Positions 32,755-60,256 of a stretch of 60,531 bases of DNA are shown one piece after another. The notes beneath the pieces were generated by a model. That model worked only from the letters and a program-made list of their open reading frames with translations, was not told the DNA's origin and ran no database searches. Both the position numbers and the translations under genes were made by a program. The stretch is from Aquidulcibacter sp. (GTDB lineage Bacteria; Pseudomonadota; Alphaproteobacteria; Caulobacterales; Aquidulcibacteraceae). The stretch is from the NCBI RefSeq assembly GCF_020253525.1, contig NZ_JADCBK010000065.1:1-60531 (forward strand), in the 5' to 3' direction. Numbering within the stretch: position 1 is the first letter of the stretch; every line of letters starts with the position of its first letter.

Positions 32755-33833
32755 ATGAGAATTACTATCACTGGCCAGACGTACTTAGTAAATTGATAAC
32801 AAAGACGGTTACGACAACTTGGCGAACAAACCGTTCATGGGTTTGTACTCCTCAACACCGGTAATTTGTTGGCGATTCAGCTCCATCGTAACATAAACTG
32901 GATCAGACGAGCGCTTAAGCCAATTGACTTCGACACCGCCATTACAGTTGGATCTAGGCTTAGAAATGCCAAGTTGGTGCGCGCCCTTACCCGGGACTGT
33001 GAGAAGGAAACTACGTCAGCAAACCTAGATTTGGTTTTGCATGTTTTTGGGTCACCATTCCCATTTGAGCATGAGTCGACAATACCGTGCTTTCTCTATT
33101 TGGACTTCACCCAGCGGAATTCAGATCAAGAGTATCCACCTTGGGCAGCTTGCTCCTCAGATCAAGACAGAGAGCAGTTTATCAAAATGAGGACTACCGC
33201 CTTTCAGCAGGCCAAAAGCATTTTCGATATGGGCAAGAATTGCTCGGCAGTGCTTGAAAAAGACTATGAAATAGCTGCTGCTAAGATTTCTGTGGTCGGG
33301 AGTCCAGGGACGTGCCGCCCTGCCCCCAGCTTTCAACTAGACCTATCGGATATCAATTTAAGGCGCGTAGTCTTGTTCAATGGAACAGAGGTCCACCGAA
33401 AGGGGGCATCACTTTAGCCGCGTTCGAAGTAGTTCGAAAACGGCATCCACAACTTGAGCTTCTGGTCTTCGACTTGAGCGAAGGACCGACGCAAGAGAAC
33501 GTAAGATATCCGGGGACTGTGACATTCGAGCAAATAAAAAGTCTCTAACAGTCCAGTCGAATGGTGATCGCTCCGGCGATTTACGACCCTTTCCCAATTG
33601 TGGTCATTGAAGCTCTGGGTTTCGGTATACCTGCCGTTATCTCCCGCAAGTATGGTGTGGCTGGAGACCATGAGAACGAAGGCGCGTTGTTGATTACAGA
33701 TAATGCCCAAGAACTCGCCCACCAAATGATCTAAAGACTGGAGTCCGAGGCGCTTTGGGTTTCGATTTCGGATATGGCCATGCAACGTGTCGAGCAGGCC
33801 TATAGCCAAGAACCTTTCTCTCAAGCAATCTGA
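32755..33833 (+). pseudogene. Broken glycosyltransferase (GT-B type)
   Basis: The remains of a glycosyltransferase in the same orientation as its neighbours. It starts MRITITGQTYLVN at 32755, a typical GT opening, then meets TGA and TAA at 32794-32799. The frame continues to about 33400 (AITVGSR, FLYLDFTQRN, KISVVGSPG, VVLFNGTEVHRKG). It then shifts into another frame (GGITLAAFEVVRKRHPQL, LVFDLSEG) and hits TAA at 33546, continues with APAIYDPFPIVVIEALGFG (an EX7E-like block), then another TAA near 33732 and a final TGA at 33831. At least three stops and one frameshift make it non-functional. Confidence 0.85.
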
Positions 33834-48275: not shown

Positions 48276-49694
48276 CTATAGGAAGTTGAGCTTGGCTGGA
48301 CTGAAGCGATTGAGGTTCGGGAAGATATCTGGCAATGCCGAATCCGGTACTCCCAACCAACTCGCCAATGTTGAGCAGTATTGTTGGTTACTGATTGTTG
48401 GGATCGACATGGGGGAGCCACCAACGTTGATCAAGTCATTGCTGTTTTCAGCGATATCGGTCAGCGAACCATAGATATCGCCGCCTTTAACCGCACCGCC
48501 GACGACAAAGCTTGCGCCGCCCCAACCATGATCGGTCCCGTCCCCATTTGACTTTGCGCATCGGCCAAACTCCGAGGTTGTGAACAAGGTCACATTGTTG
48601 CTCAGGCCCATCGCCGCCAGGGTATCGTAGAAGTAGCCGATTGCAGCGTCTAAACGGAGGAAGTTGCGTCCGTCGAGATCAGCAGCCTGTGCACTATGGG
48701 TGTCGAAATTGCGCATATTCACGAAGAACACTTGGCGATTGACGCGCAGAACATTGCGAGCCGCGATACAGCGCGCCACGGTCCGTAAGGCCGCAACCAC
48801 ATCATTATCCCGCCATGCAATCCGATAGTTTGGTATCGACGTGTCAGTGGGGATAGGCGCAAGGTCACTGGTTGCGGCAAAAGCCTGATTGAGCTGGGCA
48901 TAGGAATCCATGACCCGGCGATTGACTTTTAAATAATCTTGGTCCATCGCTTGGCTCATCGATGTTCGTTGCAGCAATGCGTTGAGTTCTGCAGAAGCTA
49001 CGGCTGAGCCAAAGACAGCGCCGTTCAAACCAGCGATATTTGAGGCTCTACCCGTCACATCAGCTTTAATGACTTCGGTAGCGCTTCCGACACTGAAGGC
49101 GTTGTTTAGCGGGCCAACGGCCATACTTGAAAACAAGTTATCTGGGTTCATGGAGGCTAAGACATCCATCGCCCGGCCCCCCCAGCCATAGCGGGTACCA
49201 TCGTCACCAAAAGTATGGATCTGGGCGTCACCATTGTTGTGCGAACCGGCAGCCGACGGTAGGCGCACGGCACCACTGAGGAGTTGGGATTTGGAAGCAG
49301 GCGCTTCCATGCCCCCATGACCATATACAATGGCCATCTTTCCTTGGTCATAGATCTGCTTCATGCGCGGCAAATTCGGGTGCAAGGCTGCCGTGCGCCC
49401 ACCTTGGGGTGATTGGGTTCCGAGTGAGCTCAAAGCGGCGCGATCGGGCATTGCTATCCCTGGTCGCAAAGCACGCAAGGCATCGTAATTTGTGGGATCG
49501 GATGGAATAATGGTGTGCATGTGATCTAGCCCGCCATCAAGGTAAAGACAGACGAGGGCTCTATAGTCATTGCCTGCCGCTGTAGCATTTGAGGCTGCAA
49601 GTTGCAAAGCGAGCGGGGAGAAGCCCCCGAGGAGGGCTGCTCCGCCAAGAAAGTGGCGACGGCTGAGTTTGTGGGCGATCTCTAAGTTTGACAT
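48276..49694 (-). CDS. DUF1501 family protein, Tat-exported
   Basis: A 472-residue protein with a textbook Tat signal (SRRHFLGGAALLGG, then a hydrophobic stretch to NATAA). Family blocks: ALVCLYLDGGLDHMHTIIP, GGMEAPASKSQLLSG, MRNFDTHSAQ, TLFTTSEFGRCAKSNGDGTDHGWGG and GGDIYGSLTDI. DUF1501 proteins have an alkaline-phosphatase/sulfatase-like fold, but their activity is not known. It is 20 bp downstream of the DUF1800 gene on the same strand; this pair is very commonly found together. Confidence 0.9.
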   Translation of the reverse strand: MSNLEIAHKLSRRHFLGGAALLGGFSPLALQLAASNATAAGNDYRALVCLYLDGGLDHMHTIIPSDPTNYDALRALRPGIAMPDRAALSSLGTQSPQGGRTAALHPNLPRMKQIYDQGKMAIVYGHGGMEAPASKSQLLSGAVRLPSAAGSHNNGDAQIHTFGDDGTRYGWGGRAMDVLASMNPDNLFSSMAVGPLNNAFSVGSATEVIKADVTGRASNIAGLNGAVFGSAVASAELNALLQRTSMSQAMDQDYLKVNRRVMDSYAQLNQAFAATSDLAPIPTDTSIPNYRIAWRDNDVVAALRTVARCIAARNVLRVNRQVFFVNMRNFDTHSAQAADLDGRNFLRLDAAIGYFYDTLAAMGLSNNVTLFTTSEFGRCAKSNGDGTDHGWGGASFVVGGAVKGGDIYGSLTDIAENSNDLINVGGSPMSIPTISNQQYCSTLASWLGVPDSALPDIFPNLNRFSPAKLNFL

Positions 49695-49714
49695 GACTCT
49701 TCTCGCTCTTCTTC

Positions 49715-51529
49715 TTAGCGTTGTACGCGATATTCTGGCGTTAGCATGGTCATCATGACGGCTAGCTTGATCCGATTGGTGCGATCTGTGTCCGTCACGG
49801 CTGGCAAACTATTAATGGATCGTACCAAAGCAGGCCGAAGGTCTGAAACGACAACACCAGGTGCGAGCAAAGTAAGCACCTTATCAGCCAACTTTTCGGC
49901 ATCTGTACCTTCATTCCAAAACTCGTCATATGCGAATGTGTTTTGGACCTTTGCAGCATGGCCACAGCCAGTCCCACCTCTTTGCAATGCATGCAGGACG
50001 AAGCGTGACCAATCCAGAGCAGCGTTGGTATCTGTTATCTGCATTTCGGGTGCAGTTAGGTTCATTGCTGCCAAACGACCATTCGCTGGTGTAAAGCTTG
50101 GGCGATAGAAGTTAAAGACTGTCGCCGAATTATAAGGGCGTTCCATCTCGGAAATAATATCGAAGTAAATTTTGCAACCTGGGGCACCGGCCCAAACATT
50201 CCCTTTGCCATCGCCTGCCTTAAGTACCCGATTCAATTGGGCAATCGCCAAGATGGGTTCGCGGACCTTGCCAAACTCATAAGGAGTGTTGTTGCTTTGT
50301 ACGCGTGCCTCCGGGTCAAGAAGGATCTGCTTGAGGACAGCTTTAAAGTCACCACGCACACCTTGCCCATTATTCTCAAACTTCGCGACAACTCGTGAAA
50401 CATAAGCGGGGCTTGGATTGCTGGTTGTAAAACGCTGGATCAGTTGCTTGCTGATAAACGGCGCGGTATTTGGATGGTTTGCCAAGGTGTCAAGCGCAAT
50501 GCCGATATTCTTGCGGCCATTGGCTTGAATTGTGCTGGGAGTCGAATTGGTCGGAATCGCGGGAATTTTCACACCCAGAAAGTTATGTTCCCGGGTGGAA
50601 GCGAAGTCCCATACCGACAACTCGCAGCGGACCAATTTGGCTTCTTCATTTGTCGGAGGCAACAGATTGCCCGCACGATCACGACAGGTCCCATATCGGT
50701 CACCGCCATATTGCATGCGTAACCCAGTGAAGACATAGGAGAGACCTGTTACATCGGCTTGGCTATAAGTTGGAATACGCGCACCGGAAGAGTCCAACTT
50801 CAGAGAGCCGTCTAGGTTAAGTTGCCAAAGCCCGATTGAAAAGAGCTGCATAACTTCGCGTGCGTAGTTTTGGTCAGGGGCGTTCCCATTGCGATCGGTA
50901 TTATTCATATAATCGAGATATTGAGCCATGATCGGACTAAAGGTCGCGCGCTCCAAGAACTCCCGATATGTACCAAAGCTGTTGTCAGCGGTCAGATCCA
51001 TCCAATGAATGGCATTCGCCCCAACTTTGTTCCGACTAACGACAAAGATTTGGGAAAGTGCCCAAGCCATTCGCAAGCGAAGCTGGTCAGGTTCCTGAGT
51101 AGATAATGTGAACCAAGCAGCACTTTCTCGGTCAGTATTGCCATCTGCAAACTCAACGGCGTTAGACGTCGGGCCGTCAACGCTATACCAGTTGATGAAG
51201 CTCTGCTTCCGAGGCATAGCGAATTGTTCGTCGAGCCAAGCGTTGTAACCGATGCTCATCAACCTATCGATCTCGGCGGAGGTTGCACCAAATGTCGCTT
51301 GATTAAGGAAGCGTGCCGCGTCTGCGCGCGAAGCTGGCTTATCCGGGAACGGTGGCTGCGGTGCCTGTACTGGCGGCGGCGGTGGCGGTGGCGGTGCCGG
51401 CTGCGGTAATGAAGAGGAGCTGCCAAGCCCTGCATCAAGCTTCGGGGCACCCCCGCCGCTGCCACAGCCGATGATAACCATAATCGCACCAACAATGGTG
51501 CCAAGCTTCAGTCGCCGTCTAATAGTCAT
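49715..51529 (-). CDS. DUF1800 family lipoprotein
   Basis: A 604-residue exported protein. The N-terminal signal ends in IIGCGSG, a lipobox, so lipid anchoring is likely. A Pro-rich linker (PQPAPPPPPPPPVQ) precedes the DUF1800 domain. ARFLNQATFGATSAEIDRLM, DNSFGTYREFLERATFSP, NYAREVMQLFSIGLWQLN and ALDTLANHPNTAPFISKQLI are the family blocks. Function is not established. ATG at 51529 with GAGAG is preferred over TTG at 51541. Cotranscribed with the DUF1501 gene. Confidence 0.88.
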   Translation of the reverse strand: MTIRRRLKLGTIVGAIMVIIGCGSGGGAPKLDAGLGSSSSLPQPAPPPPPPPPVQAPQPPFPDKPASRADAARFLNQATFGATSAEIDRLMSIGYNAWLDEQFAMPRKQSFINWYSVDGPTSNAVEFADGNTDRESAAWFTLSTQEPDQLRLRMAWALSQIFVVSRNKVGANAIHWMDLTADNSFGTYREFLERATFSPIMAQYLDYMNNTDRNGNAPDQNYAREVMQLFSIGLWQLNLDGSLKLDSSGARIPTYSQADVTGLSYVFTGLRMQYGGDRYGTCRDRAGNLLPPTNEEAKLVRCELSVWDFASTREHNFLGVKIPAIPTNSTPSTIQANGRKNIGIALDTLANHPNTAPFISKQLIQRFTTSNPSPAYVSRVVAKFENNGQGVRGDFKAVLKQILLDPEARVQSNNTPYEFGKVREPILAIAQLNRVLKAGDGKGNVWAGAPGCKIYFDIISEMERPYNSATVFNFYRPSFTPANGRLAAMNLTAPEMQITDTNAALDWSRFVLHALQRGGTGCGHAAKVQNTFAYDEFWNEGTDAEKLADKVLTLLAPGVVVSDLRPALVRSINSLPAVTDTDRTNRIKLAVMMTMLTPEYRVQR

Positions 51530-51773
51530 ACTCTCGCCCAACCTTTTGGCTTACCCTTCCCTTTTACATGAAGAAGGATACCGATCGGCTAAACGGCATG
51601 GTTAATACCCGCTAAAATGGTTCTAAGAGTTTTTACTCGGTCCCTTTGCGATCAGTTAAGCGATATTTCGCTTGATTTACTGACAGAAGTCTCGGTGGTG
51701 AAACTTTGATCTACCGAACTGGTTATGTGCGTAGGGGGTTTGGGGGGCCGACTATACAGTTGCTTTAGTCAGC

Positions 51774-52733
51774 CTAGCTCTGCTCGATATAGGCCGAGAT
51801 GGCTGCAATCGCTTCATCAAGAGATCCGTCGCGCTTTGGTCTGGTTGCTACAACCCCTTTCAACCCACGCGACATACCAAGTAGAATGACCCGTAACCGC
51901 GCGAGGTCTAGGTAGGCAGGTGCCATGAATGGTGGATAGATGCCGTTCATTAGAGTTGAGAAGGTGCCTGATCCAGACATAGGAATTAAACTGATATCTT
52001 GCATATCGTCTCCCCATGCGAGGCTCATTATGCCGACAATTTCCTCAGATTTGATAGTGCCGCGCCCGGGTGGGATCATGACATGATATTTATGTGGCCG
52101 GAAAAAGTCCCGTTCAAGCTTATCGCGCTCAATGCCAAGGGACTGAGCCGCATCCTCCCAGAGCTTCACTTTATTCACGCCGAAATGACAGATTGCGCCC
52201 TTGAGTGAATTGTTAGGGTCTGGAAACTCCATGACGGCCAAATCGTCGCCGAGTAGCGGCCAGCCTGTAGCTTTGGACAGTGCCACCGAAAGTGTTGATT
52301 TGCCTGCGCCAGAGGGGCCCGTGAAAAGCCATACGCCCTTAGGGGATTCCACGGCGCTAACATGAAGCGGCACATATTGGCGTTGAAAGGCAAGGGTGGC
52401 AAACCCGCACGTGGTCATATAGGGTCGGATATCCTCGTAGGGGACGCCCTCAAAAAGATCCAGCGTGACGCGGTTGCCGTTGCTGACCAGCAAGCGACAT
52501 TTTTCTGCTACCGAAAAGAGGCAATCTGTTTTGGTTACTTGAATCCAGTCGGCAAGTGGTAGGCTATCTTCCAATTGTTCAGGCACTTTACCATGTATCA
52601 AGTCAGCCCATGGGTATTCAACACCCTTACTTTCTTCTTCTGACATAGAAGTAAACTCTGGAAACTCGATTTCGGATCGAACTGCCAAACCAAAGAGTTG
52701 ATATAGATAAATCGGTTTAACTTCTGAAGACAT
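51774..52733 (-). CDS. Lasso-peptide-associated HPr-kinase-like kinase (K)
   Basis: A 319-residue protein. The C-terminal half is an HprK-type kinase core: His124 in PLHVSAV, the P-loop GPSGAGKST (139-147) and LLGDDLAVMEF. In paeninodin and pseudomycoidin loci such kinases phosphorylate the C-terminal serine of the precursor (family knowledge recalled, not checked here). It is 10 bp after the leader-peptidase gene, last in the operon. ATG at 52733 with an AGGG site is preferred over two in-frame TTGs. Neither precursor here ends in Ser, so its acceptor is an open question. Confidence 0.85.
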   Translation of the reverse strand: MSSEVKPIYLYQLFGLAVRSEIEFPEFTSMSEEESKGVEYPWADLIHGKVPEQLEDSLPLADWIQVTKTDCLFSVAEKCRLLVSNGNRVTLDLFEGVPYEDIRPYMTTCGFATLAFQRQYVPLHVSAVESPKGVWLFTGPSGAGKSTLSVALSKATGWPLLGDDLAVMEFPDPNNSLKGAICHFGVNKVKLWEDAAQSLGIERDKLERDFFRPHKYHVMIPPGRGTIKSEEIVGIMSLAWGDDMQDISLIPMSGSGTFSTLMNGIYPPFMAPAYLDLARLRVILLGMSRGLKGVVATRPKRDGSLDEAIAAISAYIEQS

Positions 52734-52743
52734 CAACAATACC

Positions 52744-53286
52744 CTATCGACTCTTAGTTAGCGCTATAGAGCGCGGTTTTTCATCGTAATATGCACTATA
52801 AGTTGCAACCGGGATGAAGGTGTCATTGCCTTCATGCCCAATCACCTCGATAGTGCAGCTTGTGACCCACGCATGTGCCCCAAGCTTTTGGATTCGGGCA
52901 TCAGTCGGCTTCCGATGAACCCCCAAGATCAGCTCGCTCGGTACGCCTCGCAAGCGCAACATGCCGCGCGCAGACAACGCTAGCATTAAACAGGTGAACC
53001 TCGTGCCAAACACCCGATGGATAACAAAGTGAACAGATGCCACTTCGATCGCGATCGCCTTGTACGTATCAGTCACAAGTGTGTCGTTCGCGCTTGGACC
53101 AGGCTTTCCAAGCAATCCACGCCAGAGCGAATAAGGGATGAGCCGGATTAATATCCAAGCTGTTAAAAGTCGGGAAAATGCTTCCGCATACATCAGCTTG
53201 CGGACCAATGGCACCTTCCAGAAGCGACCCAAGATCCAAAGAAGTTTTAGAAGCTTACGCATCATAAAGGTCACATCAGTTACCAC
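52744..53286 (-). CDS. Lasso-peptide leader peptidase B2 (McjB C-terminal-like transglutaminase-fold protease)
   Basis: A protein of up to 180 residues. Cys99 in RFTCLMLALSARGML and His138 in GAHAWV match the catalytic Cys and His of lasso B2 proteases; Asp155 is a possible third residue. The LRGVPSELILGVHR stretch is also typical. It removes the leader before cyclisation, working with the separate B1 recognition protein. The start is uncertain among GTG 53286, an internal GTG and the ATG pair near 53265. It lies between cyclase (103 bp upstream) and kinase. The order and split B1/B2 arrangement support the call. Confidence 0.87.
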   Translation of the reverse strand: MVTDVTFMMRKLLKLLWILGRFWKVPLVRKLMYAEAFSRLLTAWILIRLIPYSLWRGLLGKPGPSANDTLVTDTYKAIAIEVASVHFVIHRVFGTRFTCLMLALSARGMLRLRGVPSELILGVHRKPTDARIQKLGAHAWVTSCTIEVIGHEGNDTFIPVATYSAYYDEKPRSIALTKSR

Positions 53287-53389
53287 TATTTCGAACGAAT
53301 TTGGGACAGCCTCGGATAGAAAAACATTAGCAAGAACTATGCCTTCAGGGATAGCCTGGCTGTATCTACTTGGGACTCCAACGTCGGGC

Positions 53390-55315
53390 CTAGAGGCCAG
53401 AAAGTGTCTCGTCGCTGTTCGTATTTTGTATCCCAGCTTTTCGTCTTCGTTTCCACATAAACCATAATCTAAGAGCCGTCATCAATTCACCAAAGCGGGC
53501 GACCCCATAGCTCGTAGATTGATCTAGCGGATTGCTGGCTGCCATGCGGAGTTTTTCCATGTCAAACCAAGGGCAATCCTCTTCGAGTAGCTCCTTTTGA
53601 AGCCTCTCACTGACAATCTTCCAACAGCTGAACCGCGCTTCCCTTCGATACAGCTCATTAGCTGCATCTTGCTTACTGACATCTGCAGGAATGACATCTT
53701 GAAGGATCGCACGCGAAAATCCGCGAGACCGTTCATTTAAAAATAGGATCTCCGGTGGGATTGAGAGTAAGAATTCCAATAGTCGTCTGTCGGTTAAGGG
53801 GTACCGATATTGCAATTTATAAGGCGCAGACCACGCCGCCCATGTCTCCATCCGCATCGACAAATGGCCATGTTTTAGAAACTTTAGAATATTCTTCTTT
53901 GGATCTGGAAAGAGGCGTAATGGCCGCCTGAGGCGCGCGATAAACTTCCGATTTTGCTCGGCGCGCACTTTACCCATAAAGCACAATCCATAATCTTTGT
54001 CCCGAAATGGATCAAAGAGCACATAAAGTATATTAGGCAGGCTTGGGTGAATACCATTCCACCAAAGCTCGGACACGACCAGGCGGACGTTCTTCAGGCC
54101 TCTGGTCCGTTGCCGAATGAATTCCGCTAATCTCTTGAACCTTAGTCGAAGTAGCAAGTAGCCAACATAGCCATAGCCATGTGCTGAAAATGCTTCATCC
54201 CCACCCCAACCCGATAGCAACACCCTTGCGCCGTCGTCTGCCGCATTGATTAGTATCGGAAGTTCATCTGCTAGATCAGCGTTACCTTCCGTTTCTAATG
54301 GGCGCTGGAAGAATGCAAACAAGTTTTCCCCTTCCGAGCCGCCGAACCGAACTGCGATATCCTCTTTCTCCGCGGTTGCAAGGATTCTGCGTCTTTCATC
54401 TGACTGACCCAGGTCGGGGTGTTGGGTCGAAATCGGAGGAGACCAAGCGTATCCTCCACAAAGTTTCTTACTCTTTTTTCTAAAGTGCCGATTTGCCAAA
54501 ACAGCGACGGCGGTCGAATCGATACCACCACTTAAGTGCGCCCCAATTGGCTGGTTCGAGTTGCAGCGATCTGACACGGCGCGCTCAAGAATAGCACGAC
54601 ATTTCTGAACATATAGATCAGGTGAAGCCAAGGAAATGATAGGTGCTTTTCCAGGGTTCCACCATTGGTGCTGCGTGCTTTTGCCGTCAATGAACTCAAC
54701 CTGAGAACCTGGCTTAACTCGGCGGAGACCATCAAAAAATGTGTCAGTCAGCGGGTCATTATAAGCGACCTGGAACGCAACTATTGCCTTCTCATCGATT
54801 TGCCACGACCCCTCATATTGATCAATCAAGGATTTGGCGCTTGTGGACCATATTAGACTGTTTCCATGTCTAGCCCAATATAAAGGTCGAGAGCCGATGT
54901 GGTCCCGCGCCAGAAAGACATGCTTCTTCGCTGGATGTGCAATTGCAAAGGAGAAATCACCAATTAAATGTTGAAGACAGTCTGCATGCCATTTGTCCCA
55001 TGCCATCCCGATCAGTTGTGTGTCGGATAGCTGGCTCAGACGTTCGGGCCTCAAGTCAAGCTCAATCGCTAGCTCTGGCCGATTATCCAATATGGCGTCG
55101 GCGCACACCACATAGCCCGATGCAGTGAGAACAATGCGTTCGTATTGCGATTGGGGCGAAATCCAAAGTGTTGTCTGAATAAAGCGTCCCGAGGGAAGCT
55201 CCAAACTGTCCAGTGCGTCAGGGCCCCAAATAGATAAATCCTGTGCGATCGGGGCAAAATTTGCATCTTGAACGAGTTCGTCGTTCAAACTTAAATGACC
55301 ATAAATCGCCCCCAT
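53390..55315 (-). CDS. Lasso-peptide cyclase C (asparagine-synthetase-like macrolactam synthetase)
   Basis: A 641-residue AsnB homologue. The N-terminus reads MGAIYGHLSL: the Cys2 of active glutaminases is replaced by Gly, as in lasso cyclases, so free ammonia is not produced. The ATP-pyrophosphatase loop SGGIDSTAVAVLA (near residue 263) and LSGWGGDEAFSAHGYGY are present. It adenylates the Asp/Glu side chain and closes the ring on the core's N-terminal amine. ATG start with AAAGGA upstream. It is preceded by precursor A1 and a GC-rich hairpin that may set relative expression. Confidence 0.9.
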   Translation of the reverse strand: MGAIYGHLSLNDELVQDANFAPIAQDLSIWGPDALDSLELPSGRFIQTTLWISPQSQYERIVLTASGYVVCADAILDNRPELAIELDLRPERLSQLSDTQLIGMAWDKWHADCLQHLIGDFSFAIAHPAKKHVFLARDHIGSRPLYWARHGNSLIWSTSAKSLIDQYEGSWQIDEKAIVAFQVAYNDPLTDTFFDGLRRVKPGSQVEFIDGKSTQHQWWNPGKAPIISLASPDLYVQKCRAILERAVSDRCNSNQPIGAHLSGGIDSTAVAVLANRHFRKKSKKLCGGYAWSPPISTQHPDLGQSDERRRILATAEKEDIAVRFGGSEGENLFAFFQRPLETEGNADLADELPILINAADDGARVLLSGWGGDEAFSAHGYGYVGYLLLRLRFKRLAEFIRQRTRGLKNVRLVVSELWWNGIHPSLPNILYVLFDPFRDKDYGLCFMGKVRAEQNRKFIARLRRPLRLFPDPKKNILKFLKHGHLSMRMETWAAWSAPYKLQYRYPLTDRRLLEFLLSIPPEILFLNERSRGFSRAILQDVIPADVSKQDAANELYRREARFSCWKIVSERLQKELLEEDCPWFDMEKLRMAASNPLDQSTSYGVARFGELMTALRLWFMWKRRRKAGIQNTNSDETLSGL

Positions 55316-55501
55316 CGATCCAAATTCCTTTATTATACTTCTGATTTCGAATAGGATTTTGTCAAGTTGCTTTCGCTGACTTAGGTCACTTTGCTTGGTA
55401 AACTGAACGCTGTAAGCACTCAGGCGGCCTCAATAGTAAGCCACGAAATCAAGTTAAGTGGTTAAGCGGCCCCGGGCAAAATCGGTTGCCCTATATGCAA
55501 A

Positions 55502-55526
55502 TAGGGCCCGCAAACTGCGGGCCCTA
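55502..55526 (-). terminator. GC-rich hairpin after precursor A1 (terminator/attenuator)
   Basis: AGGGCCCGC-AAACT-GCGGGCCCT is a 9-bp perfect stem, extendable by one A-T pair, with a 5-nt loop, 33 bp downstream of A1. On the minus strand it is followed by only a short TATTTG, so termination may be partial. That would give more precursor than downstream cyclase message. Confidence 0.7.
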
Positions 55527-55558
55527 ACAAGCGTCTTCAAAACCGTAAGGTCAGAAGA

Positions 55559-55714
55559 TTACTTAATGTTCGTGCCAGGAATCGTACCAAAGTTGGTTTG
55601 GGTCCCGCCGAGGTCGTTCAAAGTTGTTTCATAAAATTTAGTAACGGTACCGCCGAGGGTAGCCGAAATGCTCAATTCTTCCACAACTGGTGCAGTCCAA
55701 GTTTTTTTCATCAT
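55559..55714 (-). CDS. Lasso-peptide precursor A1
   Basis: A 51-residue precursor, missed by length-limited gene finding. The leader MMKKTWTAPVVEELSISATL carries the K-x-W-x-x-P motif for RRE recognition and Thr at position -2. The predicted core begins GGTVTKFYET, with Gly1 and Glu9 as the macrolactam pair (9-residue ring), and is 31 residues long. It continues through LNDLGG to NFGTIPGTNIK. No Ser, Cys or Trp in the core; Thr is frequent. A strong AAGGAG lies eight bases before the ATG pair. It shares leader, G1/E9 and NFGTIPG with A2. The exact cleavage site is predicted, not known. Confidence 0.85.
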   Translation of the reverse strand: MMKKTWTAPVVEELSISATLGGTVTKFYETTLNDLGGTQTNFGTIPGTNIK

Positions 55715-55746
55715 AACGCTATCTCCTTCTACGTATGATCGCTAAC

Positions 55747-55774
55747 GCTATATCATGCTGAAACCTCGAGTCAA
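55747..55774 (-). promoter_or_regulatory. Predicted promoter of precursor A1
   Basis: On the minus strand TTGACT (55769-55774), 16 bp, TATAGC (55747-55752), leaving a short 5' leader before the A1 ribosome site. The same arrangement occurs upstream of A2. Confidence 0.6.
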
Positions 55775-55799
55775 ATGATTTTTCAATAATACCAATGGA

Positions 55800-55819
55800 T
55801 TAGTCTCCTAAAAGGGGAA
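55800..55819 (-). promoter_or_regulatory. Shared upstream box of precursor A1
   Basis: Minus-strand TTCCCCTTTTAGGAGACTAA, 25 bp upstream of the -35. It matches 18 of 20 bases of the box before A2 (56749-56768). It contains the dyad TCCCC-N5-GGAGA, symmetric but for one position, as expected for a dimeric regulator's operator. The regulator is not identified. Confidence 0.65.
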
Positions 55820-56350
55820 ATTGCATGATGCATTACAGTTAACGCTTGGTAATTTGCACACTTACAAATTCATTCAATCAGCGACTTGTATTGATATTCT
55901 CTGGTCATGACTGCAAAGCTATGAAAAAGATCTGTTTTTTTATTGTCACATTCTTGGGCTGGGTAAACCCAGTCCTTAGTGTATAGCATTCTTACATATG
56001 CCTAAAAATTGGGCATGTGAGACATTTACCCCCTAAACGCACTTTTGATGCAGGGCTGCTTCGCTTTTCGACTGCGGGAAATTTGCTTTTCACCCTAAAG
56101 CTTGGCCCTTTTCCGCGTCGACCGATCAGCACGACGTCTACAGTGAATACAGACCGAGATGCATTTCGCCCTCGAGGCAGTGACAAGATTTGCTCCGCCT
56201 AGGGCGCAGTATGGGAAAGCGCTGGACTGAGCCCTGCCAGACACCCCCTTGTGACTAGGCGGTATTTTAGCACATAATGTCGCGCTTTTTCCTAAAAACA
56301 GTCATGTTCCACACTTGATCGAACAAAGACATCTTCAACTTAAACATAAA
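55820..56350. other. 531-bp gap between the two precursor cassettes
   Basis: An AT-rich part (about 55830-56010) and a GC-richer part (56030-56260). A small dyad, CTGGG-TAAA-CCCAG, lies at 55959-55972. Open frames of about 60 codons exist on both strands at 55992-56202, but they have no ribosome site or recognisable product. No third precursor with the K-x-W-x-x-P leader was found. Possibly remnant DNA left by the duplication of the precursor cassette. Confidence 0.4.
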
Positions 56351-56375
56351 GGCCGGCACGCTGTGCATGCCGGCC
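56351..56375 (-). terminator. Terminator hairpin after precursor A2
   Basis: GGCCGGCA-N9-TGCCGGCC is a perfect 8-bp GC-rich stem, 108 bp downstream of A2. On the minus strand it is followed by TTTATGTTTAAG, a T-rich tail. It resembles the hairpin after A1 in strength and placement. Confidence 0.7.
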
Positions 56376-56482
56376 CCAAAATCACATGTTGTGGTTCATC
56401 TGGCCATTGAAGTATAGTGAAATCAATAACACCCAACTTCAAAGATAAGCTCAGAGCGGCGTACCGCCAAGGTAAGCAAATT

Positions 56483-56665
56483 CTACTTACACTTTGCGAT
56501 TATTCCGTTATTGCACCCTGGAATAGTACCAAAATTATTGATATTTCCGAAGATTGTGGCTTGTGTCTCTTTCCAGTCAGCAATGAAACCGCCAAGTGTT
56601 TCGCTAATTCCTAACTCTTCGATCTGTGGCTGTGACCAAACTTTTTTTAACATTGTTGTCTTCAT
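56483..56665 (-). CDS. Lasso-peptide precursor A2
   Basis: A 60-residue precursor starting MKTTMLKKVWSQ at the ATG 56665, with AGGAG six bases upstream; an in-frame TTG at 56671 abuts the AGGAG and is unlikely. The leader has LKKVWSQPQIEELGISETL. The predicted core begins GGFIADWKET with Gly1 and Glu9, and is 36 residues long, unusually large for a lasso peptide. It contains NFGTIPG, as A1 does, then CNNGIIAKCK with two cysteines (core positions 27 and 35) that could form a disulfide. There is no Ser in the core. It lies directly after B1 in the operon. Confidence 0.85.
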   Translation of the reverse strand: MKTTMLKKVWSQPQIEELGISETLGGFIADWKETQATIFGNINNFGTIPGCNNGIIAKCK

Positions 56666-56696
56666 CTTCAACTCCTACTAGTATTTGCGAATCAGA

Positions 56697-56724
56697 GGCT
56701 AAATGCCGCTGAGGTTTAGGTCAA
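56697..56724 (-). promoter_or_regulatory. Predicted promoter of precursor A2
   Basis: On the minus strand TTGACC (56719-56724), 16 bp, TTAGCC (56697-56702). The -10 is weak, but spacing and surroundings parallel the A1 promoter, including the upstream box 24 bp before the -35. Confidence 0.5.
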
Positions 56725-56748
56725 GCAAAAATCTTATATTTCAAAGAG

Positions 56749-56768
56749 TTACTCTCCTAAATGGGGAA
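56749..56768 (-). promoter_or_regulatory. Shared upstream box of precursor A2
   Basis: Minus-strand TTCCCCATTTAGGAGAGTAA, 18 of 20 identical to the box before A1, again with a TCCCC-N5-GGAGA dyad. It lies between the B1 stop codon and the A2 promoter. Confidence 0.65.
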
Positions 56769-56779
56769 TTTCTCTTTCT

Positions 56780-57067
56780 TCATTCAGGCGTGACAACTTC
56801 AACTAGATTGATTTCCGCCATTTTTCCAAGAAATTGACTAACTTGCTGGAAGCAGGTGGTTCGATCTACCTCATATGCTTCCATCAGCGCCTCACAAATT
56901 TCATCCATCGTCATGGGACGTTCAAGTAACGACCAAATGTCGGCACCAACAGAGCCAGTCGCAAAATACTTGCCCGCCCGCTCATCGAAGAATACGATTT
57001 CGTCACCTAGTGCACTTCCTTGAACACTTGAGCGTGAATAAACAGCACTACTTGATTCTTGACTCAT
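56780..57067 (-). CDS. Lasso-peptide RRE protein B1 (PqqD-like)
   Basis: A 95-residue PqqD-family protein. EIVFFDERAGKYFATGSVGADIWSLLE, then MTMDEICEALMEAYEVD, fits the winged-helix RiPP recognition element that binds the precursor leader and presents it to the B2 protease. ATG at 57067 with AGAGAG upstream. It lies 151 bp after the exporter gene and just before A2. A small free-standing B1 is expected where B2 is truncated, as here. Confidence 0.88.
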   Translation of the reverse strand: MSQESSSAVYSRSSVQGSALGDEIVFFDERAGKYFATGSVGADIWSLLERPMTMDEICEALMEAYEVDRTTCFQQVSQFLGKMAEINLVEVVTPE

Positions 57068-57218
57068 AATTTTACTCTCTGTCTTGATGTTGCATCTTAC
57101 ATTATTTCAAAATGTAAAAAGAACACACATTGATTAAGCACTATTTGCGCTAGTTGTAGGATTAAACGCGAATGATTTCAACCTGATCCGCTTTTTTGGA
57201 GTCATCATTTCGATTTTT

Positions 57219-59048
57219 CTACAAATAGTGTTTGGCTTGCATATTGAATAGCCGCGCATAGCTGCCATTCAGCGCAATCAGTTCGTCGTGGGTTCCGGCT
57301 TCCTTTATCCGTCCATCTTCGAGAACATATGTGAAGTCTGCTTGCCTTACCGTCGAGAGACGATGGCTTATGATGAGTGCTCCGCGCTGACCCAAGCGCT
57401 CACGGAAGTTCTCAAACAGTTCGAATTCAGCTGCTGGATCAACAGCACTTGTTGGCTCATCCATGATAACAAACTGGGATTCAGGGAAGAGCGACCGAGC
57501 CAAAGCAATACGTTGCCATTGTCCAATGCTGAGGTCGTGACCATCATCAAAAAGCTTGGTCAAAGGTGTCTGATAAGCGGCAGGCAATGCATCTATGAAA
57601 CGGTCAGCACCCGCAACTTCGGCAGCACGACGAATGACGTCCGCATTGTGAGGTAGCGCGACATTGCCGAACCGAATATTGTTCGTAATGGTGTCGGCAT
57701 AACAGGAATAGTCTTGGAAAATCACGCTAAACAGAGCACGATAGGCGTCAGGCTCTAAGTGTCGAATATCTGTGCCATCCAGCAAAATTCTGCCCTCGGT
57801 GGGGTCGTACAATCGGTTCAAAAGCTTGATCAGAGTTGTCTTGCCGGACCCATTTTCCCCTACAAGGGCAACAATTTGTCCAGGTCGCATTTCAAAATTG
57901 ATATCGCTGACTGACGCTCGCTCAGCGCCCTCATATCTGAAGCTAACATTTTCCATTTGGATGCCAGCTGTAAGTGGCAAAGCAATAGCAGCAGGTTGCG
58001 CGGCGGTAGTGATCTTGGGTTTGGTGTCGAAGAACTCAAATAAGCGACCCAAGTACAGATGGTCGTCCACGAGGCGTGAAACGCTGGAAACCATTTCGTT
58101 ACCGGCGCTCTCTGCTCGCCTCAAGAGCAAAACAAACATCGCCACTTGGCCGATCGTTAGTGAGCCCATGAGTGCGGCATCTATCAGAAAGGCTGCTGCA
58201 CCCATAAAGACGATGGATCCAAATGCGGCAACGCCAAGTTCGAACACGGCCCGTTTCTGTTCGAGGGATAGGTTTTCTTTCCGAATTTTGGTTTGGAGCG
58301 CCTTGTAACTATCTGCAAAGTATGCGCCGAGCCCATTGATCCGCAATTCCTTTGCATGATGGTTGGAAGTGAGCATCCAATCCAGATAGCCGGATCGACG
58401 CTCCAGCTGGGCGCGTGTCATGCGCCAATCATACAAGCGTTTGGTAAAGAGAAGCCGCACACCCAAGGCTGCCCCAACAGTCAGCAAGAGAATGGGTAGA
58501 AGCCGCCACTCTATCGCGGCCAGCATGACAAGGATGGCTACCAAAACGATCGCCCCTCGGGCACCGTTGATGACATTGCCGATGACTTGAGCAGGCCGCT
58601 GTGCGCCAGCTTCGCGGGCCTTTTGTAGGGAATCAAAATACTGGGGGCTTTCATAGAAGCTTAAATCCAACGCAATTGCACGGTCATGAATTTTGCTATT
58701 CACCAAATCACCGACCACAAATCCTTGTCGCATCCGCAAGAGGTTAGCAATCGATTGTGCAACCGCGGCGAGAATGAGGGCGGTACCTGTCAAACCAAGG
58801 TACCAAAAGACCTCTGTATGACCATCAGTGCCTTGCAAGCCTCTACCGATTGAATCGACGAGTAATTTTATGGCATATAGCGAGCCAATTGAAAGTGCTG
58901 CCTCCAAAAATGTCGCGGCAATTACTGCGGCCGTTAGCCATGGGCCACTCTCCATCAGGATCGTCCAGACCCGATTTGCGGTCATCTGAGCCGAGGCTAT
59001 GACCGAAGACAGCTTCACGAGAACCGCGGCTTTGGGTTGAGCCAACAT
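57219..59048 (-). CDS. Lasso-peptide ABC exporter D (fused membrane and ATPase domains)
   Basis: A 609-residue half-transporter. The transmembrane domain (about 25-330) has six helices and carries the type I exporter layout. The ATPase has Walker A GENGSGKTT (about 393-401), the signature LSIGQWQRIALARSLF (about 505) and Walker B FVIMDEPTSAVD. It has no N-terminal C39 peptidase, so leader removal falls to B2. It probably exports the mature peptides and gives self-protection. The start is fixed at 59048, where the upstream stop and this ATG overlap as TAATG; a longer frame to 59114 lies inside the previous gene. Confidence 0.9.
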   Translation of the reverse strand: MLAQPKAAVLVKLSSVIASAQMTANRVWTILMESGPWLTAAVIAATFLEAALSIGSLYAIKLLVDSIGRGLQGTDGHTEVFWYLGLTGTALILAAVAQSIANLLRMRQGFVVGDLVNSKIHDRAIALDLSFYESPQYFDSLQKAREAGAQRPAQVIGNVINGARGAIVLVAILVMLAAIEWRLLPILLLTVGAALGVRLLFTKRLYDWRMTRAQLERRSGYLDWMLTSNHHAKELRINGLGAYFADSYKALQTKIRKENLSLEQKRAVFELGVAAFGSIVFMGAAAFLIDAALMGSLTIGQVAMFVLLLRRAESAGNEMVSSVSRLVDDHLYLGRLFEFFDTKPKITTAAQPAAIALPLTAGIQMENVSFRYEGAERASVSDINFEMRPGQIVALVGENGSGKTTLIKLLNRLYDPTEGRILLDGTDIRHLEPDAYRALFSVIFQDYSCYADTITNNIRFGNVALPHNADVIRRAAEVAGADRFIDALPAAYQTPLTKLFDDGHDLSIGQWQRIALARSLFPESQFVIMDEPTSAVDPAAEFELFENFRERLGQRGALIISHRLSTVRQADFTYVLEDGRIKEAGTHDELIALNGSYARLFNMQAKHYL

Positions 59049-60256
59049 TAGGCGACGATCCGCTTTGAAAGATTTCCAAGGAGCGCAGCTATATTCTCTG
59101 CCACGTACAACCATTCCATCGCTCTCGGTCGAGGTTTGTGCATATATTGGTCTACACTAGGCTGCAGGCGTCTTAAGGCTGATTGACCCCAAAACAAAAA
59201 CTTACGTTTTGAGTCGAACTGCCACTGATCACCGAAGTCGAACAAAAACATAGCGTCCCAGCTTTCAAGCTCGAAAGCAGAGTCACCAGGCAACCCCCTG
59301 AGACAAGCGTCGAGGAAAATGCCGCTTGGGGTATTTCCAAGATTAGCCTCCCATTCGTCCGGCTGGCTAGTGAGTCTAGCAAACTCAATTGCCGCCTGTA
59401 CTGAAGGCAAGAGACCAACTTCATCTGCGAGTCTCAGCACTTCTTCCATATTGAAGCTTGAATGACTCATCAAGGCATGGAGGTCTGCTACCCAGTGGAG
59501 CCGTGACCAGAAATGCCGAGAATGATGATAGATGATATAGACAAAGTGCCAGGCCGTAGAAAGCGAGTTAACGGTATCATTTCCAAGTTTCAAATGCTGG
59601 GATTCTCGCAAAATGCGAGCAACAGGGAAAATTGGAGTCGTCTTTTCTATGTACCGATGCAATTCAATATGGATGTTATCCTGATCAAACATAGAGATTA
59701 CATCCGCATGACGAATGATGAACGACATATCGTCAGCTTTGGTTACAAAGCTACCGATGACTGGATCAAGCAAAAACCGGTAACCCCTATTGAATGCAAG
59801 TTCTGCTACCTTAGCAAAATCTGACTCTGCAACCAAAACATCAACGTCGCTGCAGGTGCGTAACGCAGGATCCCGATAAAATTGCTGGGCAAGGGCTGGA
59901 CCCTTCATGTACGTATGGTTTGCCTTAACCGGAGCGATGCATTGGCGATGAAAGACCCCCATAGCCGCTGTCAATTTCTGCATTCGTATGGTCCGACCCA
60001 GCGCATTGAGACGCGCTTCAAGCATTAATGCCTCTGGCACCGGCTTCGGCTTCAAGGTGAACAAATGCTTATAAACAAAAGGCAAACTTGCATTATTTGC
60101 CGCAAGGCAGAAGAACTCATCCCAATCGGACACTTGATCACAAAGTTGAACAACAGCCGAAACGAGATGATCGGGAAGAACATCCCTGGCAAGTAACAAG
60201 AGCAATTTTGCAGTCGCGTCGCTACGCGCCGGACCCTTTTCAGCTAAACTCTTCAT
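59048..60256 (-). CDS. Lasso-associated nucleotidyltransferase-family protein
   Basis: A 402-residue protein of the NTP_transf_5 type. KGPALAQQFYRDPALRTCSDVDVLV (Lys118; Asp137 and Asp139) is the nucleotidyltransferase signature with its two metal-binding Asp; HIELHRYIE may supply the third acid. Such genes accompany kinase-containing lasso loci. In pseudomycoidin biosynthesis the homologue is reported to modify the phosphorylated C-terminal Ser with sugar (recalled knowledge). First gene of the minus-strand operon, coupled to the exporter by TAATG. A TATAAT-like -10 lies 117 bp upstream. Confidence 0.82.
   Translation of the reverse strand: MKSLAEKGPARSDATAKLLLLLARDVLPDHLVSAVVQLCDQVSDWDEFFCLAANNASLPFVYKHLFTLKPKPVPEALMLEARLNALGRTIRMQKLTAAMGVFHRQCIAPVKANHTYMKGPALAQQFYRDPALRTCSDVDVLVAESDFAKVAELAFNRGYRFLLDPVIGSFVTKADDMSFIIRHADVISMFDQDNIHIELHRYIEKTTPIFPVARILRESQHLKLGNDTVNSLSTAWHFVYIIYHHSRHFWSRLHWVADLHALMSHSSFNMEEVLRLADEVGLLPSVQAAIEFARLTSQPDEWEANLGNTPSGIFLDACLRGLPGDSAFELESWDAMFLFDFGDQWQFDSKRKFLFWGQSALRRLQPSVDQYMHKPRPRAMEWLYVAENIAALLGNLSKRIVA

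Follow-up and report, generated by a model that had tools for sequence, protein, structure and literature searches.

The window analysed here is a 60,531-nucleotide stretch of Aquidulcibacter sp. DNA (contig NZ_JADCBK010000065.1), numbered on its forward strand. Between positions 51774 and 60256 it carries eight genes, all on the minus strand, that look like a lasso peptide pathway of the paeninodin/pseudomycoidin kind, with two precursor genes, a peptide kinase and a nucleotidyltransferase. The list of open reading frames (ORFs) gives the reading order NT, D, B1, A2, A1, C, B2, K. An earlier interpretation of the bare letters (the sequence-only reading) had proposed this gene set, strand and order, and all eight ORFs are present where it placed them. 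The sister locus lies in the Hyphomonadaceae bacterium UKL13-1 (CP012156.1; L002/L012) and encodes proteins 52-76% identical to those of the window. The genes are:

59048..60256, minus strand: NT, a PF14907 nucleotidyltransferase-like protein of 402 residues with an S-D-V-D motif, 67% identical to that of UKL13-1
57219..59048, minus strand: D, an MsbA-like ATP-binding cassette (ABC) exporter without a C39 domain (609 residues in UKL13-1)
56780..57067, minus strand: B1, a PqqD-like RiPP recognition element (RRE; RiPP, ribosomally synthesized and post-translationally modified peptide) of 95 residues
56483..56665, minus strand: A2, a precursor with a 24-residue leader and a 36-residue core
55559..55714, minus strand: A1, a precursor with a 20-residue leader and a 31-residue core
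53390..55315, minus strand: C, an asparagine-synthetase-like lasso cyclase of 641 residues, without Cys2 and with an SGGIDS motif
52744..53286, minus strand: B2, a transglutaminase-like leader peptidase with Cys99 and His138
51774..52739, minus strand: K, an HprK-like peptide kinase of 321 residues with His126, Lys147, Asp165 and Asp166

Two starts were reassigned. The longest ORF of D begins at 59114 but, by comparison with UKL13-1, the likelier start is the ATG at 59048, which overlaps the stop of NT; A2 probably starts at the ATG at 56665, not at the TTG at 56671.

Family matches were obtained for all of the enzymes. NT matched NTP_transf_5 (PF14907) with an E value of 1.5e-35, supplying the nucleotidyltransferase gene that marks a pseudomycoidin-type locus. 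D matched ABC_tran (E 8e-30), and the C39 family is absent from the 17 Pfam matches. B1 matched PqqD (E 6.7e-16) and, below its cut-off of 80, lasso_PqqD_Bac (68.1 bits). C matched Asn_synthase (E 1.3e-27); its best NCBIfam match is lass_lactam_cya (NF033535; 222 bits, E 1.3e-65), which stays under that model's exception-type cut-off of 525. The protein begins M-G-A, hence it has no Cys2, and it retains SGGIDS. B2 matched Transglut_core3 (E 2.7e-11) and lasso_biosyn_B2 (49.2 bits, cut-off 33), the sole case of a locus protein passing the curated cut-off of a lasso-specific NCBIfam model; its Cys99 and His138 are invariant in all five aligned sequences, the window's included. K scored 33.4 bits against HprK_rel_A (TIGR04352), short of the membership cut-off of 200. 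A1 and A2 each had a single NCBIfam match, the paeninodin precursor NF033524 (24.8 and 17.5 bits; cut-off 27 not reached). Among eight precursors of relatives scanned, seven matched that model alone and one matched none, and only that of G1084 exceeded the cut-off (28.0). Sequence searches against solved structures matched the cyclase to AsnB-like enzymes (e.g. 7ylz), the kinase to P-loop ATPases only (best E 0.002), and NT to one protein, Hfq (E 0.11). The sequence-only reading had named a cyclase lacking Cys2, a PqqD-like RRE, a Cys/His leader protease, an HprK-type kinase and an ABC exporter without C39, and each is borne out by these data. It had also proposed a profile check of the cyclase and B2 families; B2 passes its cut-off, and the cyclase model is the best match of C but below its own. 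Its assignment of the region to a lasso pathway is thus supported by the family matches, and also by a Thr at leader position -2 and a Glu9 in both precursors.

The K-x-W-x-x-P leaders described in that reading are present, but they do not end in Thr-Leu-Gly-Gly: the leader stops at Thr-Leu, and Gly-Gly forms core residues 1 and 2. Gly1-Gly2 therefore open the core and the ring acceptor is the Glu at position 9 in both A1 and A2, which carry the Thr(-2) and the Asp or Glu at core positions 7-9 that define a lasso precursor. The 31-residue A1 core has Gly1, Thr3, Tyr8, Glu9, Thr10, an FGTIP motif (Thr24) and Thr28, no Ser and no Cys, and ends Thr-Asn-Ile-Lys. The 36-residue A2 core has Gly1, Phe3, Glu9, FGTIP (Thr23), Cys27 and Cys35, again with no Ser; like A1 it terminates in Lys. 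The sequence-only reading mentioned neither the missing Ser, which bears on the kinase, nor how long the cores are. With two Cys in the tail and none in the ring, A2 has the sequence features of a class IV lasso peptide. Its long core resembles pandonodin (class IV), and the tail-tail disulfide of pandonodin could form in A2 also. Pandonodin has 33 residues in total and the longest tail according to a 2026 review (PMC13352647); A2 differs in its 36-residue core and in the kinase and nucleotidyltransferase of its locus. The predicted masses before tailoring are 3226.62 Da for A1 and 3793.87 Da for A2, or 3791.86 Da with a Cys27-Cys35 disulfide.

Scanning of named genomes returned UKL13-1 and one contig of an Ignavibacteria metagenome-assembled genome (MAG; G1025). 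The lasso genes of G1025 are 52-65% identical to the window's and lie on two contigs (L003, L035), the precursor, RRE, exporter and NT being on a separate contig from the one first found; we take the two contigs to be putative halves of one locus. The Ignavibacteria label is doubtful for both, which are possibly mis-binned alphaproteobacterial DNA. The window, UKL13-1 and G1025 are referred to below as the window's group (three loci, four precursors). All four precursors share K-K-x-W-x-x-P, Thr-Leu-Gly-Gly, Glu9 and, in a tail that is otherwise variable, F-G-[ST]-I-P, in which lies the one core position where all four carry a hydroxyl residue. Core position 3 is Thr in A1, Phe in A2, Ile in UKL13-1 and Val in G1025. 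The UKL13-1 core (31 residues, Glu9, FGSIP) has two Ser and ends Gly-Ser-Arg.

Glu9 occurs in eight of ten relatives' precursors (UKL13-1, G1025, G026, G033, G1084, G750, G198 and the second G052 locus), a Gly1-Glu8 reading being possible as well for some of them; it is absent from those of G032 and the first G052 locus when the core start is set by the same rule. G052 has two distinct kinase-bearing loci (L024, L025) with distinct precursors. Two loci of one genus, L011 (6300-6455) and L024 (5723-5869), encode putative 14-residue cores with Asp8, Ala at -2 and a Ser-Ala-Ser end next to kinase, NT and cyclase-like genes; these precursors may be of a different lasso type or a non-lasso type.

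Among 299 genomes of the order, five have a cyclase match at E<=1e-30; the window's genome is one of them, and the match in G032 is weak. At E<=1e-60 it was found in 3 of 60 genomes of the family, in 1 of 385 in the class sample (the window itself) and in 2 of 398 in the phylum sample, where G750 joins the window. Within the order, the kinase (E<=1e-10) was found in 7 of 299 genomes, at eight loci with the window's included. A search of 398 genomes of the order with a model of the four precursors (E<=0.001) gave three: the window, UKL13-1 and, as a weak match, G1084, an additional kinase-bearing locus. In plasmids there was no cyclase match at 1e-30, and all ten kinase matches were below 32% identity.

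The gene order of the window is that of UKL13-1, which has one precursor. This weakens the claim of the sequence-only reading that the order is unusual, as does the fact that three next-nearest loci retain these genes with one block inverted. In G026, G033 and G1084, NT, D, B1 and C are on one strand and K and B2 are inverted between B1 and C, with A before the K-B2 block in G033 and after it in G026 and G1084. C and B2-K are likewise divergent in G1025. Farther away, in G032, G198 and G052, the genes are arranged differently. Next to the kinase in the window is a DUF1501/DUF1800 pair (48276-51541). A DUF1800 gene lies in the equivalent place beside the UKL13-1 locus (L002 10899-12707), and among nine genomes of the genus these DUF1501/DUF1800 copies (61-69% identity) occur only in the window and UKL13-1.

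In the precursors of the group, the usual attachment site for the kinase is missing. According to reviews (PMC9266682, PMC8498205), a lasso kinase modifies the precursor while it is still linear, at a C-terminal Ser that is termed extremely conserved (PMC9266682). All seven kinase-bearing loci outside the group (G026, G033, G032, G198, both G052 loci and G1084) have a precursor ending in Ser; these precursors were chosen by the leader motif, those of G198 and the second G052 locus by eye from lists of small ORFs. The G750 precursor ends in Ser too but is not counted here, its contig having yielded no kinase. None of the four group precursors has a C-terminal Ser. Of the two marks of a paeninodin-type locus, A1 and A2 lack the C-terminal Ser and the kinase has the HprK-like residues; His, Lys, Asp and Asp are kept in all ten kinases compared, the window's included, so the group kinases are not visibly dead. 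Since neither core has a Ser and Lys takes the place of the usual terminal Ser, the kinase most likely acts on the hydroxyl residue within FG[ST]IP, which is Thr in both cores and Ser in that of UKL13-1. From the contrast with the Ser-ending precursors and the hydroxyl column of FG[ST]IP, we infer that the kinase was retargeted in the window's group. A Ser in the leader was rejected as the phosphosite; it is missing from the UKL13-1 and G1025 leaders. Our preferred reading, to which we assign a probability of roughly two in three, is a probably working lasso locus that makes two products from one enzyme set, with the FG[ST]IP Thr as the likeliest kinase target.

Gene-by-gene distances were computed from six rows per gene for the six nearest loci; the long distances are saturated and rough. 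A spurious cyclase match from L035, which forms a long branch in the cyclase tree, was excluded from the comparison. Window to UKL13-1, the distances are 0.38 for the kinase, 0.42 for the exporter, 0.54 for NT, 0.80 for B2, 1.01 for the RRE and 1.11 for the cyclase. Window to three outside loci, they are 5.5-6.9 for the kinase, 4.3-6.5 for B2, 3.4-3.9 for the RRE, 2.4-3.5 for NT, 2.1-2.7 for the cyclase and 1.65-2.0 for the exporter. The kinase thus moves from the nearest gene in the UKL13-1 pair to the farthest with the outside loci, where it overlaps the range of B2. In a kinase tree of ten sequences the window's group has 100/99 support. A switch of target in the ancestor of the group would fit this tree and these distances, but the evidence is mixed and goes no further.

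Several observations weigh against the preferred reading: i) window to G1025, the distances are 1.86 for B2, 1.49 for the kinase, 1.45 for the RRE, 0.95 for the cyclase, 0.81 for NT and 0.79 for the exporter, so that kinase and B2 are the farthest of the six genes and the kinase is the most conserved only in the window-UKL13-1 pair; ii) even in that pair, identity gives a tie (exporter 76.4%, kinase 76.0%); iii) the group comprises three loci only, one of them divided between two contigs of a questionable MAG; iv) the AlphaFold models were too poor to be used (mean pLDDT 42.1 for the kinase, 3 rows, and 40.1 for NT, 2 rows); v) scans of the window give no excess of promoters (8 vs 11.0 expected) or terminators (8 vs 10.1); and vi) the conservation of FG[ST]IP may serve threading, export or target binding instead.

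The last point leads to the strongest alternative, a serious one although we put it at somewhat less than an even chance: the locus makes lasso peptides, but the kinase and NT modify something else, be it a different residue (in A1, for example, Thr3, Thr10 or Tyr8) or a different molecule, and FG[ST]IP is there for threading or target binding. Its Phe, Gly, Ile and Pro are indeed more strictly conserved than the hydroxyl residue, and a non-C-terminal site is known. The Bsf locus of Bradymonas sediminis, like the window, has a kinase, an NT and a precursor without C-terminal Ser, and its kinase BsfK is an exception in phosphorylating a Ser at core position 3, in the ring, where it tolerates Thr (PMC10368454); A1 has Thr3. 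But Bsf differs in having Ile at leader -2, where the window has Thr, and position 3 is variable in the group, with Thr3 missing from A2, UKL13-1 and G1025. The cores offer no second position at which every group precursor carries a hydroxyl, which favours the FG[ST]IP Thr.

Each precursor appears to lie in a cassette of its own. The noncoding elements are:

56749..56769, minus strand: element upstream of A2, of the TTTCCCC-N-TTTAGGAGA type
55800..55820, minus strand: element upstream of A1, a second copy of that upstream of A2
56719..56724, minus strand: -35-like TTGACC about 60 nucleotides ahead of the A2 start, without support from the promoter scan
55769..55774, minus strand: -35-like TTGACT about 60 nucleotides ahead of the A1 start, also without support from the promoter scan
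56349..56377, minus strand: terminator-like hairpin 3' of A2, with a 13 bp stem and z -4.6
55502..55526, minus strand: stable hairpin 3' of A1, with z -3.5 over the stretch that was folded and a short T tract, missing from the terminator scan

A block with TTTAGGAGA/ATTAGGAGA is found upstream of three of the four group precursors (A1, A2 and UKL13-1; G1025 is without it). Two sites in the window fit the 21-base element pattern where 0.01 would be expected, the pattern being derived from those same two sites. TTGAC[CT] stands about 60 bases ahead of the start in all four, and UKL13-1 (z -5.1) and G1025 (z -3.0) also have a hairpin 3' of the precursor, the values again being for folded stretches. 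Because the scans show no excess, the hairpins count only through their fold z-scores, and the cassette model is what we infer from conservation. In this model an upstream element with a -35-like box, the gene and a strong hairpin would make up each cassette, so the precursors could be produced in excess over the enzymes. Rfam gives no family at gathering score in the window, and none to E 0.1 in 55300-56820. Between the cassettes (55830-56345) lies a spacer of about 516 bases without RNA family or convincing gene and without a match in 60 other genomes.

The same elements bear on whether A2 is a decaying duplicate and A1 alone is used, which we consider improbable. UKL13-1 and G1025 each have a single precursor, and A2 scores lower than A1 against NF033524; but A2 retains the leader motif, Thr(-2), Glu9, FGTIP, the upstream element and the hairpin, and has a Cys pair and no stops. 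Quite improbable is a trimming of the tails after translation to shorter peptides ending in a Ser or Thr that the kinase could use. The Gly-Ser-Arg end of UKL13-1 is one residue off a C-terminal Ser and A1 ends Thr-Asn-Ile-Lys, but there is no carboxypeptidase among the eight locus proteins scanned, A2 has Cys at the column of Thr28 of A1, and in the cases on record the precursor is phosphorylated before it matures (PMC9266682). LPP loci, a recently reported class of non-lasso RiPP (RRE, HprK-like kinase, NTP transferase, MsbA-like exporter and SpI-like peptidase; PMC13381572), have a tailoring set identical to the window's, but a product of that class is highly improbable, given the cyclase-like gene and B2 peptidase of the locus and the absence of a signal-peptidase-like protein among the eight scanned.

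In the preferred reading of a working two-product locus, B1 would bind the K-x-W-x-x-P leader and the kinase would phosphorylate the linear precursor. B2 would cleave behind Thr-Leu, and the cyclase would close a ring between Gly1 and Glu9 with the tail threaded through it. NT may put a sugar or nucleotide onto the phosphate, and D would export the product. Pseudomycoidin (psm, Bacillus pseudomycoides) likewise combines lasso genes with a kinase and a nucleotidyltransferase; there K phosphorylates and N attaches hexoses (PMC9266682, PMC8498205). The tentative likeness of the window NT to PsmN comes from those papers. Pseudomycoidin differs in its Firmicute host and in its site, the C-terminal Ser, whereas the window has Ser-less cores and two precursors. 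An HprK-like kinase with His-Lys-Asp-Asp and split B1/B2 are also found in the paeninodin (pade) and Sphingobium SyanA systems (PMC9266682, PMC8498205), but their precursors end in the C-terminal Ser that the window's lack. UKL13-1 shares the one-strand order NT-D-B1-A-C-B2-K and Glu9 and differs in its one precursor and the Ser in its core. Lasso loci with kinase and nucleotidyltransferase are thus already known as a kind; what is new is the predicted combination of Ser-less cores of 31 and 36 residues, a conserved Thr/Ser motif within the tail together with an intact kinase, and the Cys pair of A2. We found no publication on the window locus or its UKL13-1 sister; in the part of the UKL13-1 literature that was searched the word lasso is absent.

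In the neighbourhood of the lasso locus, between about 19 and 48 kb, the window holds many exopolysaccharide genes: a sugar transferase, an export protein, a chain-length kinase, a Wzm/Wzt-like exporter, glycosyltransferases and acyltransferases. At 33489-33752 is a glycosyltransferase match with two internal TAA stops, probably a broken gene. Glycan markers were PF02397 (E<=1e-10, 28 matches) and PF00534 (E<=1e-8, 89 matches) in nine genomes, eight of them of the window's order. Eight of ten lasso loci lie within 10 kb of a marker against 0.70 expected at random placement (tail 1.9e-8), in a test that was made post hoc, counts related loci as independent, disregards contig ends and leaves out G1025. 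The counts are 5 of 10 within 5 kb (0.46 expected) and 8 of 10 within 20 kb (1.17 expected), G198 and the second G052 locus being away from the markers. In Bacilli, paeninodin and LPP loci are embedded beside capsule/polysaccharide genes (PMC13381572); a kinase/NT RiPP lies within polysaccharide loci in both settings, in Bacillota there and in another phylum here. A limited literature search found no report of such a neighbourhood for Caulobacterales, the order to which PMC10008586 assigns the sister UKL13-1. A bolder and doubtful extension is that a branch of lasso kinases shifted from the C-terminal Ser to the Thr/Ser of FG[ST]IP and that NT caps the phosphate or loads it with sugar, which would give a surface-glycan-linked lasso peptide made from an exopolysaccharide locus, with A2, longer than any in the 2026 review, bearing a tail disulfide.

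The Ser-ending and Ser-less precursors with related kinases form a natural series in which the choice of residue by lasso kinases can be tested. A2 is a candidate lasso peptide longer than pandonodin, which at 33 residues has the longest tail in the 2026 review (PMC13352647), and the association of kinase/NT peptides with polysaccharide loci would be extended beyond Bacilli (PMC13381572). A study of the UKL13-1 group (PMC10008586) sought polyketide synthase, nonribosomal peptide synthetase and tda genes and deemed the dearth of bioactive compounds there unexpected; a term search of its main text for lasso, RiPP and bacteriocin finds none of these words. The locus described here offers a candidate bioactive peptide in this group of algal-bloom bacteria around UKL13-1.

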